A DNA stretch of 64,000 nt from Hoyosella altamirensis (lineage in GTDB: Bacteria; Actinomycetota; Actinomycetes; Mycobacteriales; Mycobacteriaceae): the NCBI RefSeq assembly GCF_014191505.1, contig NZ_JACHWS010000003.1:620001-684000 (forward strand). Direction: 5' to 3'. Of this stretch, positions 17,812-29,890 are shown in pieces. Under the pieces are notes generated by a model that saw only the letters and a list, made by a program, of their open reading frames with translations, had not been told where the DNA came from and made no database searches. The position numbers were made by a program, and so were the translations under genes. Numbering within the stretch: position 1 is the first letter of the stretch; every line of letters begins with the position of its first letter.

Positions 17812-17907
17812 GTGAGTGGACCAGGGGTATGGCTGGCTGGCACGCGGCTTGTGCAGCGCCGCCATATTGATTTCAAGCGTGTCAATAGCTGCGGCTGTCG
17901 CCCGTAG
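17812..17907 (+). CDS. Cysteine-rich leader peptide upstream of sirA (putative attenuator uORF)
   Basis: A 31-codon frame starting at GTG 17812 and ending TAG 17907. The C-terminal part reads QRRHIDFKRVNSCGCRP. The RRH-hydrophobic-D-hydrophobic-xRV core followed by terminal cysteines resembles the short leader peptides that precede cysteine and sulfur genes in actinobacteria. A CACAAT sequence six bases before the GTG fits a -10 element of a leaderless transcript. The stop lies 126 bases before sirA. In mycobacteria such leaderless cysteine-codon ORFs act in cis: ribosome stalling when Cys-tRNA is low raises downstream expression. Function here is inferred. Confidence 0.7.
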   Translation: MSGPGVWLAGTRLVQRRHIDFKRVNSCGCRP

Positions 17908-23113: not shown

Positions 23114-25444
23114 TTACTCGGCTGCGGGATCGACCTGTGGAACGACGTGCACGGGCACTCCGAGCTCGGAGTCCATGGTGACGATGATCCCGTCACCAAA
23201 CTTCGCCACATCGCGCGTGATTCCGTCTGTCAGGGAGGGGATCCGCCACGGTGTCCACCGCACTCCATTCGGTGATAGCCATACGACCGGGCCGCTGCCG
23301 TTGTCCGATGTGAATCGGCCCGGTGCCGCGAATCCGCCTGGTATGGAGACAGGCTTCAACATGCTCGACCCGTACTCAGTGCGGAATACGCCTTCGAACT
23401 GGATACCGTCTTCGGTGCGAAGGACGATGTTCCTGCCCCCCGTGCTAGCACCGATGACGGTCCCATCACCCGTGGTCGCACACCCGGTGAGTTCTCCCGT
23501 ACCGGTTGTGAGGATCTCCGCTGTGGCTCGTTCCCAGCCATCGTCGGTGCCGCGCCAAGCGGCGGGTACGCGCACGTCGCCGTCGAGAAGGTAACCGACA
23601 GCCAGCAGCAGGCCATCCGGAAGCGTACACACGCCAGTAGCTTCACCTGCCGCCTCGTCAAGAGCAGTGGCGTCCTCCCAGCCCCGCCCGTCACCCGAGC
23701 GCCACAGTGACGCACGCCGGACCGTGTCGTCTGGGTTCTCAGGGTTCTCGGGGTCTTCGGTAGCCGCTTCCCTGCTAGCCCCGACTGCAACCCACCCATC
23801 GGCTGTGCGCTGCACCGCGCTGAACTTCGCATCGATGACATCCCCGAAGCCGCCCGCCGGTTCCCACGGCTGGTCAGGTCCGCCGCGGAACCACCCGCGG
23901 GGTTCGACACGCTGGCGCGAGGGACTGAATCGGGAACCCAGCAGCACAGTGTCGCCGGGGTCACTTGTCCCCACCACGGTGTCGGTGAGTTCGGCCACCT
24001 CGGGAGGGTCGAAGGGTATTTCGTTCACCTGCCGGTCCGGGGTGAGTTCGAAGAGGGCGCGCTCTGGAATTGCAGAGAAGTTCGGGCCGTCCACCTCGTA
24101 CCGCACGCGCAACGTCTTGATGAAGGCGCGTTCCGCGTCGGCTGCACCCGCAACGGTGGCCAGGGATTCCACCTGGGCAACCTGTTCGATGGACCCTACA
24201 CGTTCAAGTTCACGCCATGCATTTTCACGGCCATGCACGCCGACGACTGCCTGACCGGTACCGAACGGGCTCAGAATTGCGATCTGCTCGTCTGGATTGA
24301 CGGACAACGTCAGGCCACCGACACCGGGATAGTCCATCAAATCTGAGGTGCCGGTGAAAGCCCAATCCCCTTCCGCGTTCCGGTTGTAGAAGCCCGCACG
24401 CAGCGAATCGTCGTTGCTAGCCACAACGAAGGCGATACCATCGCGCACCGCGGGCCGCCCCAACACAGTGTCGACGCCCTCTGCGACATAGAAGACGGAT
24501 TCTTCGGGTGGCGGCGGGACGACTTCGGTGTCCCAGTCTGCTCCGTCGTCTGACGACCATGCAGCGGGAATGAGCCCACCGGTACTGGGATCTCGGCTGC
24601 CGCCGGTCACCACATAGCGGTCGCCGGTCCACGCCATCCCTGAAAGGAACGTATCGGGGTCATCCGCGACGGCGGCAGGACCGCTCCATGTCACTCCCGC
24701 ATCGTCCGAAGTGTATGTTTCGAAAGTGCCCCCGGCGCCTTCTTCGCCGCGCTGGACGAGGATCACTGCGGAATCCTCATGCGCTGCCATATCGACGATG
24801 ACTCGCTGTTCTCTATCCGCGATGCCGGGCAGTCGCACATATTCAGTGCGGTCCCCGTCGAGGATCGCCACACCCAGCTCTTTCTCGACCGAGGTGCCCG
24901 CCACCAACAGTCGTGACTCTGCGGCCGCGCCCGTCACCACACGGTAAGTGCGTGCGAAGTCCTCGGGGAGTTCCACTTCGTGCCAGTCACGGCGGTCGAA
25001 CGCTCGCCACACGCGTGACACGAGCGCGCCGTCTTCGAAGGAGACTCCGACCAAGCCACTCACGTCGGGGTTCCCGACGAGCCCTCCAGTGAAGGATGCG
25101 TTGTAGTCGCCTGCCACGTCGGCCCGGAACCAGCCAAATCCGTCGTCGGAAAGCCAAACCTGTGGGCGCGCTGCTTCTCGTGGCGCTGCGACATTCAGCG
25201 CAAACGCGAACGGCACACCCTCGGCCGGCGGTAAGAAATCCATCCCCAGCCCGGCATATTCGTCGCCGCGATACCACTCGCCCGGCACATCAACCGGCTC
25301 CGATGGAAGTTCACGCAGAGCCTCCGCAACATCTGGGGCTTCGCCCGTCTCGACTTCCGGATCTTCCGTGGGGGTCGCGCATCCCGCGAGAGCGAGCGCC
25401 GCAGCGATGAGCACGGCGCCTGCCCGACGGGCGGTTATCACCAT
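23114..25444 (-). CDS. Large secreted lipoprotein of unknown function
   Basis: A 776-residue protein with a clear lipoprotein signal peptide (AGAVLIAAALALAGCATP, Cys22). The mature part is acidic and built of repeating segments with Trp and Asp, such as WLSDDGFGWFRADV, YTSDDAGVTWSGPA, WSSDDGADWDTEVV, WRSGDGRGWEDAT and WLSPNGVRWTPWR. These look like Asp-box/BNR-type propeller blades. No catalytic signature was recognised. It sits between the two sulfur operons, on the same strand as cysA but 67 bases after it. Whether it has anything to do with sulfur is unknown. Confidence 0.8.
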   Translation of the reverse strand: MVITARRAGAVLIAAALALAGCATPTEDPEVETGEAPDVAEALRELPSEPVDVPGEWYRGDEYAGLGMDFLPPAEGVPFAFALNVAAPREAARPQVWLSDDGFGWFRADVAGDYNASFTGGLVGNPDVSGLVGVSFEDGALVSRVWRAFDRRDWHEVELPEDFARTYRVVTGAAAESRLLVAGTSVEKELGVAILDGDRTEYVRLPGIADREQRVIVDMAAHEDSAVILVQRGEEGAGGTFETYTSDDAGVTWSGPAAVADDPDTFLSGMAWTGDRYVVTGGSRDPSTGGLIPAAWSSDDGADWDTEVVPPPPEESVFYVAEGVDTVLGRPAVRDGIAFVVASNDDSLRAGFYNRNAEGDWAFTGTSDLMDYPGVGGLTLSVNPDEQIAILSPFGTGQAVVGVHGRENAWRELERVGSIEQVAQVESLATVAGAADAERAFIKTLRVRYEVDGPNFSAIPERALFELTPDRQVNEIPFDPPEVAELTDTVVGTSDPGDTVLLGSRFSPSRQRVEPRGWFRGGPDQPWEPAGGFGDVIDAKFSAVQRTADGWVAVGASREAATEDPENPENPDDTVRRASLWRSGDGRGWEDATALDEAAGEATGVCTLPDGLLLAVGYLLDGDVRVPAAWRGTDDGWERATAEILTTGTGELTGCATTGDGTVIGASTGGRNIVLRTEDGIQFEGVFRTEYGSSMLKPVSIPGGFAAPGRFTSDNGSGPVVWLSPNGVRWTPWRIPSLTDGITRDVAKFGDGIIVTMDSELGVPVHVVPQVDPAAE

Positions 25445-26489: not shown

Positions 26490-27295
26490 GTTGTGCTCCT
26501 CTTGCGGTCGAGGACAGTCATCAGAAGCAAAGTCAGGATGGCGAGCATCATGAGCAGCGTCGCTGCCGTGTAAGCGCCGAACGTGTTGTGGTCATCGATG
26601 TAGCGCGCGTGCACGAGCAATGTCAGCGTCTGCGAAACGCCCGCAAAACCGGAAGAAACGAAGAGCACCGCACCGAACTCGCCGAGTGCACGAGCCACCG
26701 TGAGGACCACGCCATAGGTCAGCCCCCACCGGATCGCGGGCAACGTGATGCGGGAGAACGTCTGCCACGAGTTCGCACCGAGCGTCGCGGCAGCCTGTTC
26801 TTGTTCCTCGCCGATCTCACGCAGCACCGGCTCAACTTCGCGAACCACGAAGGGCAATGTCACGAAGATAGTGGCGAGGACCATGCCCGGGATGCCGAAA
26901 ATGACACGGAAACCGATGTTCTCCACAAACGTGCCGAACCAGCCGCCTGCGCCCCACAAGGTAATGAGCGCAACGCCGACGACCACTGGTGAGACGGCGA
27001 AAGGAATATCAACTACGGCCTCGAGCAGCCGGCGGCCGGGGAACCGCCCGCGGGCGAGCGCGAGCGCGGTCACAATGCCGAATATCACGTTCACCGGCAC
27101 CACGATGACCACGATGAGCAGCGACAGATTCAGCGCCGATATTGCCGCTGGCGTTGTGATCGACTCCCAGAACGCCAGGATTCCGTTCTCGAATGTGCGG
27201 TACAGAATCATCCCGATGGGGACGAGTACGAGCAGCGCCAGGTAACTGAGGGCGAGGGTGCGAAGCGAGAGCCGCCAGCCGCGAGTCACGATCAT
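26486..27295 (-). CDS. cysW: Sulfate ABC transporter permease CysW
   Basis: Permease of 269 residues with about six membrane segments, beginning [20 protein letters not shown]. The EAA loop region is [21 protein letters not shown] and the motif [16 protein letters not shown] is typical of sulfate permeases. It overlaps cysT at its start and cysA at its end by four bases each, indicating translational coupling through the operon. Confidence 0.93.
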
Positions 27296-28131
27296 GCCGC
27301 ACGCTCCTCACGCCGTACCGCACGGTGCGCAAGCACGCGCAACACGAGCAGGGTGATGAACGCGATGATTAGTAAGACAACGGATACGGCTGCCGCGTTC
27401 TCGGGCCGATCCATTTCGAGTTGTTGCTGAATGTACTGCGAGGCGACCTGGGTTTCGCCGCGAATATTGCCGCCGATCAAGATGATCGAGCCGAACTCTC
27501 CGATAGCGCGTGCGAAAGCAAGCCCAGCGCCACCAAAAATCGCCGGAGACAAAACTGGCAGAACAACCCTCCAGAAAATGGTGAAGTTGCTCGCCCCCAG
27601 CGAGGCCGCCGCTTCCTCTACGTCTTTCTCGAGTTCGATCAATACCGGCTGCACCGACCGGACGACGAAGGGAAGCGTGACAAATGCAAGCGCAACGATC
27701 AGGCCCGGCTGAGTTGCATTGAGGTGCACGTTGATCGGACTGGCAGGGCCGTACAGCGAGAGGAGCACAATGCTCGCGACGATCGTGGGCAGCGCGAAAG
27801 GTAGATCGATCAAGGCATTGACGATTCGCTTGCCTGGAAAGTCATCGCGCACAAGCACCCAGGCGATCAGCGTGCCGAAAACCACATTGATCAAGGCAAC
27901 CACCGCCGACACGAACGCGGTTATCCGAAGCGCAGCGACTGCGCCGGGAGCGGTGATCGCGTCCCAGAACCCGCCGAGTCCGTTCTCGAACGACGTCGCA
28001 GTGAGCGCGGCGAGCGGCAACAGAACGATGATGCTGAGCCACAACACCGCGACTCCGATGCCGAGAGGCCCCACAGTGCCGGTGAAGCGGCTCATCCGCA
28101 CCGGTGGGCTTGCTGTTTCCTGAATCGCCAC
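27292..28131 (-). CDS. cysT: Sulfate ABC transporter permease CysT
   Basis: Partner permease of 279 residues with about six membrane segments. The EAA-type loop is KDVEEAAASLGASNFTIFWRV and AFARAIGEFGSIILIGGN is the conserved permease motif. It starts five bases after subI and overlaps cysW by four bases. Together with CysW it forms the channel of the sulfate importer. Confidence 0.93.
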   Translation of the reverse strand: MAIQETASPPVRMSRFTGTVGPLGIGVAVLWLSIIVLLPLAALTATSFENGLGGFWDAITAPGAVAALRITAFVSAVVALINVVFGTLIAWVLVRDDFPGKRIVNALIDLPFALPTIVASIVLLSLYGPASPINVHLNATQPGLIVALAFVTLPFVVRSVQPVLIELEKDVEEAAASLGASNFTIFWRVVLPVLSPAIFGGAGLAFARAIGEFGSIILIGGNIRGETQVASQYIQQQLEMDRPENAAAVSVVLLIIAFITLLVLRVLAHRAVRREERAA

Positions 28132-28136
28132 GTCTG

Positions 28137-29189
28137 CTACCTCAGCGCCTCGTAGTACAGGGTGGAAATCGCACCATTGTCAGGATCAAACAGCTCTGTG
28201 TTGACGACCTTCCATCCGCCGAAGTCGTCCACCCCCCATACGGTTTCTGGCTGGGGGAAGACGTTTTCGAACTCAGCGCGAATGGCGGGGTCTGCTGGCC
28301 GGAATCCCGCACGAGCCCATGTGCGCTGCCCTTCCGGCGAGAACTGGAAAGCGAGGAAGTCTTCCGCCATGTCGCGGTTCGGGCTGTTCTCAATGATCGC
28401 CATCGGGTTCTCGATACGAAGTGTCTCGTCTGGCGTGACAAATTCGATCGGATCTCCCAGGCGTTCGAGGAAGATAGCTTCGTTTTCATATGTCAGGAGG
28501 ACGTCGCCGCGTCCCTGGAGGAAGGCCTCCGTCGCTTCCCTGCTCGACCCGGGCTGAATTTTGATGTGCTCCTGAATGAGAGTGCGCACATACTGCAGGC
28601 CCCGCTGAGGGTCTTCGCCACCACGGCTCATGACCGCGTACGGCGCGAGGAGGTTCCACTTGGCAGATCCTGAACTGAACGGGTTCGGGGTTACAACCTC
28701 GACGCCCGGTTCCACGAGGTCTTCCCAGGTCTGGATATTCAGCGGGTTCCCCTCACGAACCACGAACGTCACCATCGAGCCGAAAGGGATGCCACCGGAT
28801 TTCCCATCGTTCCAGTTGGGAGCGACCAGACCTGCATCGACGAGGCGGGTGACATCGGGTTCCACCGAGAAGTTGACGACATCAGCGGGGGCCCCGTTTG
28901 CCACTTTTCGTGACTGATCCGCGGAGGCACCGAAGGACTGCAGGAACGCGACGCCCTCCCCCTCGGGCGTATCCGCGAACTCGGGGATTACTTCATCGAA
29001 ACCGATTTTCGGCACCGCGTAGGCGAAGAGCCCTAATGTCCCGCGGGTTCCGTCTCCGCCGATCGTGCGCTGCCCTGGAATGTCGCTTGGGCCACCCGCG
29101 CAGCCAGCGGCAAGGAGAGCCAATCCCAGCAGAGCCGCGACCGCGCCAGCGGACTGTCTGCTAATGGAGGTGGCCCAGCGTATTCGCAT
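28137..29189 (-). CDS. subI: Sulfate-binding lipoprotein SubI
   Basis: Substrate-binding protein of the sulfate importer, 350 residues. The signal peptide ends LALLAAGCAGG with the lipidated Cys at residue 30. The mature domain contains FAYAVPKIGFDEVIPEF, SFGASADQSRKVANGAPADV and YENEAIFLERLG, as in bacterial sulfate-binding proteins. ATG at 29189 has GGAAGG upstream. The 140-base leader before it carries the stop of a cysteine leader ORF. Confidence 0.93.
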   Translation of the reverse strand: MRIRWATSISRQSAGAVAALLGLALLAAGCAGGPSDIPGQRTIGGDGTRGTLGLFAYAVPKIGFDEVIPEFADTPEGEGVAFLQSFGASADQSRKVANGAPADVVNFSVEPDVTRLVDAGLVAPNWNDGKSGGIPFGSMVTFVVREGNPLNIQTWEDLVEPGVEVVTPNPFSSGSAKWNLLAPYAVMSRGGEDPQRGLQYVRTLIQEHIKIQPGSSREATEAFLQGRGDVLLTYENEAIFLERLGDPIEFVTPDETLRIENPMAIIENSPNRDMAEDFLAFQFSPEGQRTWARAGFRPADPAIRAEFENVFPQPETVWGVDDFGGWKVVNTELFDPDNGAISTLYYEALR

Positions 29190-29329
29190 GGATATTCGAT
29201 GCCTTCCGTCTGCTGACTTGGACGCACGCCGCAGCTGCGGCAGTCCCGTAAAGTTGTCGCCGCCAGAAATTCGGGGACGGCACCCGGCCAGCTCGGCGGG
29301 TACCCCACGCACCCGTCAGCAAGGCTTGA

Positions 29330-29422
29330 CTAGCGACAACACATGATGTCAGCGACCGCGGGCAAACCGACAGCGATCAGCGCCAACTGATGGCGCACTT
29401 CGTACTGTCCGGCCTTATCCAC
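29330..29422 (-). CDS. Cysteine leader peptide upstream of subI (putative attenuator uORF)
   Basis: A 30-codon frame from GTG 29422 to TAG 29332-29330. It ends ADIMCCR, with two adjacent cysteine codons just before the stop. A TAAGAT at 29435-29430 lies seven bases upstream of the GTG, the spacing expected when transcription starts at the first base of the codon, so the ORF is probably leaderless. The stop lies 140 bases upstream of subI. It parallels the leader in front of sirA and fits the mycobacterial polycysteine leaderless ORFs that attenuate sulfur operons. Function is inferred. Confidence 0.65.
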   Translation of the reverse strand: MDKAGQYEVRHQLALIAVGLPAVADIMCCR

Positions 29423-29429
29423 GGCGACA

Positions 29430-29435
29430 ATCTTA
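29430..29435 (-). promoter_or_regulatory. -10 element of the subI-cysTWA leader
   Basis: TAAGAT on the minus strand matches TANNNT and is seven bases before the GTG of the cysteine leader ORF. No good -35 lies at 17 bases; a TTGACG occurs 25 bases upstream, which is too far for a normal promoter. Confidence 0.5.
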
Positions 29436-29489
29436 GCAGCGATCTTTCGCGCCGCCACATCGTCAAAGCGGCATTACGCAGACGGTGAC

Positions 29490-29570
29490 CTACCACACAG
29501 ATAGAGCCCAGGCGATGACGATGAGAATCAGAAGCGCGCAGAGCGCGAGCGTGACCCTAGACTTCGGCAT
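29490..29570 (-). CDS. Very small membrane peptide, 26 residues
   Basis: The frame starts at ATG 29570 and overlaps the last 14 bases of the preceding small membrane gene. AAGGAGAGG lies upstream at good spacing. The product is a basic N-terminus (MPKSRVT) followed by one hydrophobic helix of about 18 residues (LALCALLILIVIAWALSVW). The well-placed ribosome-binding site, the overlap and the membrane helix argue that it is translated. No function can be assigned. Confidence 0.5.
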   Translation of the reverse strand: MPKSRVTLALCALLILIVIAWALSVW

Positions 29571-29793
29571 CACCGCCCACCTCTCCTTCAGTTTCGGAAC
29601 CGCGCGCACCAGAGGCTCGCCTAGTTCGCTCAAGCCGTTCGAAAAGCGGCCCCATGACTCGATCAAGCACCGTAGCGAATACGAAGCACAATGGCACCAT
29701 TACCGCCACTACCAGGACCACCTGGGGTACGAAAGGCAGCCCGGCTATCCATAGCTCGACGCCATCCCACCAACGCGCGATCGCATCCACCAC
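29557..29793 (-). CDS. Small membrane protein of unknown function
   Basis: Protein of 78 residues from tandem GTG codons at 29796/29793 (GGTGGG upstream). It has an amphipathic start (AIARWWDGVELWIAGLP), one long hydrophobic segment (FVPQVVLVVAVMVPLCFVFA) and a charged tail (DRVMGPLFERLERTRRAS). A small membrane protein occupies the same position between subI and the GH15 gene in mycobacteria. It overlaps the 26-residue peptide gene downstream and is divergent from the GH15 gene. Confidence 0.6.
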   Translation of the reverse strand: MVDAIARWWDGVELWIAGLPFVPQVVLVVAVMVPLCFVFATVLDRVMGPLFERLERTRRASGARGSETEGEVGGDAEV

Positions 29794-29890
29794 CCCACCA
29801 TATCGGTGCCGGCCCGCGCGGATCTCCACACAGTCCACGGATTGAGTGTTTCCCTCAGCACACCGAAGCCCCACCCGTCACAATGAGGCA

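Follow-up and report, generated by a model that had tools for sequence, protein, structure and literature searches.

The 30-codon ORF upstream of the sulfate-uptake operon subI-cysT-cysW-cysA of Hoyosella altamirensis is very probably a cysteine-responsive attenuator on a leaderless short ORF, as judged from its sequence and by analogy with known leaders. By its features it falls into a kind already published from mycobacteria, the leaderless cysteine attenuators, and cysteine attenuation as described in mycobacteria appears to extend to a Hoyosella-type genome. What is added here is within-family evidence that points to selection on the codons of a hairpin inside the ORF and on a C-terminal peptide motif. 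All coordinates refer to the window, the whole stretch of 64,000 nucleotides that was analysed.

The leader ORF, its operon and its distribution

The leader, its predicted promoter element and the genes behind it are the following.

29430..29435, minus strand: -10 box TAAGAT, 7 nt 5' of the GTG; the predicted transcript start is the GTG or an adjoining base (leaderless)
29330..29422, minus strand: leader ORF, GTG start, 30 codons and stop, peptide VDKAGQYEVRHQLALIAVGLPAVADIMCCR; NCBIfam NF042937, 43.9 bits against a cut-off of 31
28137..29189, minus strand: subI, sulfate-binding lipoprotein, first structural gene, 350 aa, ATG at 29189, lipobox-like LLAAGC
27292..28131, minus strand: cysT permease, TIGR02139
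26486..27295, minus strand: cysW permease, TIGR02140
25512..26489, minus strand: cysA ATP-binding protein, TIGR00968

The ORF extends from the GTG at 29422 to a TAG at 29332-29330, and its 3' end reads TGT TGT CGC TAG, with adjacent Cys codons near the stop and MCCR as the C-terminus of the peptide. The preliminary description had placed a 30-codon ORF ending MCCR, with its GTG seven bases after TAAGAT and with adjacent Cys-Cys codons, in front of subI-cysTWA; the positions of the ORF (29422-29330) and of the box (29435-29430), the TGT TGT pair and the downstream gene calls all hold. The match of the peptide to NF042937, "Ms4533A family Cys-rich leader peptide", has E = 2e-11, and in a six-frame search of the 4.76-Mb genome the ORF was the sole NF042937 match above the cut-off (41.4 bits). 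Because of this E value and of the sole over-cut-off match, the ORF is not regarded as a chance one. A chance ORF without function is barely credible: 30 codons are short and a -10 box alone is a weak signal, but the family match, the fixed context and the codon-level selection already contradict this reading by comparison.

A TANNNT box stands 5' of an in-frame start at 91 of 92 family loci, with a spacing of 7 nt in 85, 6 nt in three and 8 nt in three, and leaders of 29 and 30 codons occur at 61 and 24 loci, respectively. Since the family starts were picked among in-frame starts by the presence of a TANNNT box, some selection is built in, and the 7-nt spacing is supportive, not independent. 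A sigma-70 consensus scan requiring also a -35 box gave no promoter at 29100-29500, and Rfam at gathering thresholds gave no match. Directly upstream of the leader are two small overlapping ORFs on the minus strand, 29557-29874 and 29490-29570, of 105 and 26 aa, respectively, each with a hydrophobic stretch; the former has no NCBIfam match, and neither matches Pfam.

Downstream of the leader, subI, cysT, cysW and cysA follow in this order on the same strand, the last three named by NCBIfam. A 140-base spacer lies between the leader stop and the subI ATG, a start codon that is our choice. A related-locus search with subI as query gave no match. Between cysN and cysA, an ORF of 776 aa at 23114-25444 on the minus strand gave only BNR-like and F5/8 type C matches, both weak and short of the Pfam cut-offs.

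In the proposed mechanism, transcription would start at or beside the GTG at 29422, as suggested by the -10 spacing and the family comparison, and ribosomes would translate the 30-codon ORF first. With charged tRNA-Cys plentiful, the ribosome would clear both TGT codons and depart; with charged tRNA-Cys scarce, it would stall on TGT TGT, immediately 5' of the last sense codon. By comparison with the relatives in M. smegmatis, the stalled ribosome may then alter the RNA fold or the ribosome traffic near the subI start, upon which the sulfate transporter would be made. The attenuation mechanism of M. smegmatis is summarised in passages of PMC9031893 and PMC13236596.

NF042937 was matched in 84 of 151 genomes of the family, in 72 of them above the curated cut-off, and in 33 of 298 genomes drawn order-wide, 30 of which belong to the same family. 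The 84 genomes hold 92 places, and 91 of these are directly upstream of a sulfate-binding protein gene (subI), the adjacency being assigned by the lipoprotein signature for 84 and by coordinates for seven. This gene is present in 128 of the 151 family genomes and in 83 of the 84 with a leader, the exception being G011 (weak match, without a -10 box). L122, which has no -10 box, no subI in its genome and E 6.6e-5, was excluded from the leader counts. The same leader was traced through 19 genera of the family sample and was found in three of three genomes of the own genus and in four of four of the neighbouring genus g21. By leader DNA, the nearest named records are Hoyosella sp. YIM 151337, Hoyosella rhizosphaerae and three Lolliginicoccus species.

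The 92 places gave 91 leaders, of which 84 had an automatic subI start (seven failed the lipobox pattern). Removal of loci with an identity of 80% or more in the 50 bases that begin at the stop left 71 dereplicated leaders from 18 genera, and the codon, pN/pS and structure tests were run on these. Five of 25 extra loci (L126-L150) were left out, and seven duplicate places were omitted from an alignment of 84 rows.

Two leaders each are present in eight genomes, seven of genus g10 (G009, G039, G058, G074, G090, G129 and G141) and G026, and according to coordinates every leader precedes its own copy of the binding-protein gene. The seven g10 genomes have neighbouring subI paralogues with one leader match apiece. 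In other genomes, e.g., G025, G042 and G062, a second sulfate-binding gene occurs without a second leader match. Genomes G068, G123 and G135 (g29) and G042 (g16) have a second, much higher-scoring sulfate-binding gene (E < 1e-90) beside the usual subI, possibly acquired from elsewhere.

Twenty subI upstream regions from 19 genomes had no HMM match. In six of them, one each from g2, g7, g13 and g19 and two from g29, a leaderless Cys-ended ORF is convincing; by eye, none was in the other 14, the candidates at L206 and L208 being among those judged unconvincing; subI is therefore not always under leader control. In the g2 leader, the inverted repeat described below is kept exactly despite a His to Gln change. 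L214 (G068, g29) is an 18-codon leader, MREASGVFECAAFVHCCR, upstream of subI, in which the -10 spacing and Cys-Cys are kept, without the hairpin and without the V-x-D motif. It represents a natural deletion test of the leader body.

Constraint on codons, peptide and hairpin

Three elements inside the ORF were compared among the family leaders.

29380..29396, minus strand: hairpin GCGCCA-TCAGT-TGGCGC, 6 bp here; the family core is 5 bp, CGCCA/TGGCG
29345..29356, minus strand: V-A-D-I codons, part of the motif V-x-D-[IV]-x-C; conservation at the amino-acid level
29336..29341, minus strand: TGT TGT (Cys-Cys), the regulatory codons; all 71 dereplicated leaders have TGT as their first Cys codon

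TGT accounts for 109 of the 124 Cys codons in all leaders, versus 10 of 89 in subI stretches and 13 of 47 in 13 ORFs of the window. According to a passage of PMC1183508, attenuators are known for a bias in the choice of their regulatory codons.

V-x-D-[IV]-x-C is kept by 70 of the 71 dereplicated leaders, with third bases free, and in the full set of 91 leaders it is present in 87. Val and Asp are each present in 71 of 71, written with four codons and with both codons, respectively. For the V-A-D-[IV] codons, pN was 0.085 and pS 0.612 (71 leaders, 18 genera); a control stretch of subI had pN 0.136 and pS 0.620, and the N-terminal leader codons were free (pN 0.540, pS 0.608). The L-I-A-V-G stretch between the hairpin codons and V-A-D-[IV] is also conserved, with pN 0.082 and pS 0.540. 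The hairpin codons are low in synonymous change, with pS of 0.327 for R-H and 0.323 for L-A; Arg is CGC in all 65 leaders where present, and Ala is GCG in 66 of 71. Selected information thus lies not only in the Cys codons but also in the C-terminal motif and in the middle of the ORF, a reading to be taken with the limits that related rows are not independent and that L214 has neither motif nor hairpin. Since this 18-codon leader has neither, a minimal leader may need no more than the Cys codons.

The preliminary description had taken codon content rather than peptide sequence to be the signal, on the ground that the two leaders of the window differ in their peptides. This is unsupported: the two belong to different families, so their difference is uninformative about constraint within either, and within NF042937 both V-x-D-[IV]-x-C and the hairpin codons are constrained. 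A somewhat unlikely alternative lets the conserved peptide itself do the work, with the Cys codons as only part of the signal: the nascent chain in the exit tunnel, with V-x-D-[IV]-x directly ahead of the Cys codon, would set or sharpen the stall, or the peptide would act as a small protein elsewhere in the cell. It would suit the fixed Val and Asp with their varied codons, the frequency of the motif, and a pS of V-A-D-[IV] that is like those of the N-terminus and the subI control, yet with so low a pN. The motif-less 18-codon leader before subI in one g29 genome speaks against it, and conservation cannot separate action in cis from action in trans.

The repeat CGCCA-N5-TGGCG is exact in 83 of 91 leaders, four have the compensated form GGCCA-N5-TGGCC and four are imperfect; 18 of the 19 genera have one intact copy or more. 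In the 84-row alignment (82 distinct rows), 98.3% of the hairpin cells pair, versus 93.0 +/- 0.7 in shuffles. The outer pair is C-G in 63 rows, G-C in 14 and unpaired in five, and one row (L141) has a U-G pair. Double-sided changes (14 cells) and a covariation score of 0.111 were above all 500 shuffles, and the numbers of covarying pairs (one) and of pair types (two) in this alignment were not above shuffles. The double changes are confined to one genus, where a single event may account for them, and a shift by +3 columns gives an equal score, though only 54% of cells then pair; support for the hairpin thus comes from codon constraint more than from covariation.

The symmetry of the repeat and its paired C-G to G-C change would suit a dimer site equally, and the repeat could thus be an operator site in the DNA, bound by a regulator of sulfur genes, and not an RNA hairpin. 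This is quite improbable: CGCCA-N5-TGGCG shows no genomic enrichment (15 places, with 20 for a reversed control), which disfavours an operator common to a regulon; it was found within 75 bases of an RRH[IV]D stretch at none of 30 loci of the sister family NF042936, and it is absent from the first leader of the window. The G-U pair of L141 also speaks for RNA.

A pause signature of RNA polymerase is given in a passage of PMC12288461 as G-10, Y-1 and G+1 with a hairpin 10-13 nt upstream. The window and 51 of 71 leaders have a pause site of this pattern 12 nt after the hairpin, against a background of 5.9%. This candidate was rejected; other leader positions, pushed higher by conserved codons, reach 71, 70 and 69 of 71, so the pattern is no evidence alone. 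Passages of the literature on such leaders, Canestrari et al. 2020 lying outside this scope, contain no mention of the in-ORF hairpin or of V-x-D-[IV]-x-C, and a literature search with the string Ms4533A gave no match.

Speculatively, and with considerable doubt, the leader could be a three-part sensor made of the hairpin, the nascent V-x-D-[IV]-x and the TGT codons, and not a bare counter of Cys codons. The hairpin, at +27 to +43, would delay RNA polymerase or the next ribosome and so keep transcription and translation of the leader coupled; V-x-D-[IV]-x, in the exit tunnel while a Cys codon is in the A site, would tune the ease of stalling; and the TGT codons would sense the charging of tRNA-Cys. 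Such a sensor, if true, would combine an amino-acid attenuator with an arrest peptide.

Possible routes from stalling to subI

For the attenuator proposed above, masking of the subI ribosome-binding site is a reasonable last step in terms of modelled pairing, and its unmasking is preferred over relief of termination as the downstream step, at somewhat better than even confidence. The segments concerned are the following.

29315..29325, minus strand: candidate anti-Shine-Dalgarno strand GCCTTGCTGAC, just 3' of the leader stop; -16.5 kcal/mol, suggestive
29253..29260, minus strand: GCGACAAC, complementary without mismatch over 8 bases to the Cys-codon stretch GTTGTCGC (29340-29333)
29201..29217, minus strand: partner GTCAGCA-gacgga-AGGC, overlapping the subI Shine-Dalgarno sequence GGAAGG (29207-29202)

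A helix as good as that between GCCTTGCTGAC and 29217-29201 was formed by 6.4% of 1000 shuffles. Three Lolliginicoccus genomes have a different, stronger helix at the same two places, of -19.5 to -21.0 kcal/mol (1.1-2.7% of shuffles). The corresponding helix is ordinary in H. rhizosphaerae (-13.3 kcal/mol, 40% of shuffles as good) and weak in Hoyosella sp. YIM 151337 (L095, the third genome of the own genus; -6.7 kcal/mol, 84% of shuffles). An anti-Shine-Dalgarno strand right after the stop was rejected as a general family feature, with the best window at -8..+12 in five of 71 loci and 7.0 expected.

In a pairing map of 64 cells, the lowest cell was that of the post-stop and Shine-Dalgarno regions (t = -3.8, also -2.7), with noise elsewhere reaching t = +4.0. 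Spacer windows six and nine bases past the stop paired with the remaining spacer better than shuffles did (t = -2.7 and -3.7, respectively). Cognate pairs of post-stop and Shine-Dalgarno segments were not better than genus-swapped ones in 67 loci from 18 genera (p = 0.93 with one placement and 0.50 with the other), and because this control was not significant by genus, the pairing is kept as suggestive only. The predicted unmasking of the subI Shine-Dalgarno sequence upon stalling was 0.042, versus 0.022 with shuffled spacers (p = 0.31, 71 loci).

Pairing between the ORF and the region just upstream of subI, which had been raised in the preliminary description, is present here as the exact 8-base complement of GTTGTCGC and GCGACAAC, with P = 0.0084 in shuffles for what was a post hoc choice. 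This pairing would cross the anti-Shine-Dalgarno helix and occurs in two of seven Hoyosella/Lolliginicoccus loci. In the family, no leader segment had a pairing with the spacer that was clearly above shuffled spacers, with t between -2.5 and +2.5 and none beyond -2.5.

The main rival, considered rather unlikely, is that the RNA stays occupied by ribosomes when these stall at the Cys codons, and that Rho-dependent termination within the 140-base spacer is thereby prevented. A scan for intrinsic terminators (stem and T run) at 29100-29500 gave 0 sites, with 0.3 +/- 0.5 in shuffles; this speaks against the termination reading and leaves Rho or another factor as its only route. In favour of Rho are the mostly negative results of the family-wide tests of Shine-Dalgarno masking, the RNA of leader and spacer, whose fold is more stable than that of shuffled-spacer controls (-103.3 vs -99.8 kcal/mol, p = 1e-6), and a slight richness in pyrimidines in the first 12 bases past the stop (Y 0.67-0.68, against 0.54-0.66 in later bins, 71 loci). 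A passage of Seliverstov et al. 2005 (PMC1262725) also proposes Rho for mycobacterial cys leaders, because these were found without terminators, and calls the prediction weak. Against it, the cysteine genes of M. smegmatis are cited as under translation attenuation in a passage of PMC13236596.

Related leaders and probable role of the subI leader

A second cysteine leader, the first in order of position, precedes the reduction operon of the window.

17812..17907, plus strand: first leader, before the operon sulfite reductase-cysH-cysD-cysN, peptide VSGPGVWLAGTRLVQRRHIDFKRVNSCGCRP; NF042936, 44.9 bits against a cut-off of 45

This leader, with a score just under the cut-off and C-G-C in place of adjacent Cys residues, may be missed by automatic annotation. 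In the family, 126 of 151 genomes match NF042936 at E <= 0.001, and only 31 pass the cut-off. The view that both operons are wired to the same cysteine signal probably stands, since each has a Cys leader, of sister families, the one of the reduction operon falling marginally short of its cut-off. That the two leaders share only their terminal Cys codons was inexact: both contain an R-H dipeptide written CGC CAT, and the first one ends C-G-C-R-P, without an adjacent pair.

The last Cys codon of NF042936-type leaders (L167-L196 and the first leader of the window) was TGT in 42 rows and TGC in 0, counted in 44 rows from 30 loci and the window that include alternative starts of one leader and are not independent. 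Since TGT is used at the last Cys in these as well, Cys leaders in general may prefer TGT. The Ms4527A family (NF042936) thus shares with the subI leader the genome, the presumed signal and TGT at the last Cys codon; it differs in its peptide, RRH[IV]D..KRV, in the lack of CGCCA-N5-TGGCG (0 of 30 loci) and in a window member without adjacent Cys. NF042935, tried as a further leader family, was unrelated.

With the Ms4533A family (NF042937), presumably named after an M. smegmatis locus, the subI leader shares the score above the cut-off, the terminal Cys codons and the place before a sulfate-binding gene. It differs in its Hoyosella-type genome and in ending CCR with two Cys codons, where several g29 leaders have three or four. 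Canestrari et al. in 2020 reportedly described leaderless polycysteine attenuators of M. smegmatis. As far as partial accounts of these tell, the leaderless-type short ORF, the adjacent Cys codons near the stop and a cysteine-metabolism operon downstream are common to them and the subI leader. In contrast to them, the cysteine response of the subI leader is a predicted one, and a structure masking the Shine-Dalgarno sequence can be drawn for it but was not confirmed by the family comparison. Conserved Cys-rich small ORFs on leaderless mRNAs of M. smegmatis are described in a passage of PMC4633059, with ribosome occupancy for a different one, before cysA2.

The subI leader is like the enterobacterial trp and his attenuators in that the regulatory codons would be read by a ribosome, and differs from them in its leaderless-type start and in that no intrinsic terminator was found at 29100-29500. 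The trp and his attenuators have pause hairpins, which the early in-ORF hairpin of the subI leader resembles.

For the organism, the subI leader most likely serves to raise the sulfate-uptake genes when cysteine is short. By comparison with the family, it carries information beyond its Cys codons, in a hairpin at the nucleotide level and in a motif at the amino-acid level. Leader peptides are usually viewed as dispensable carriers of regulatory codons, and this view would be directly testable here by small, separable changes.
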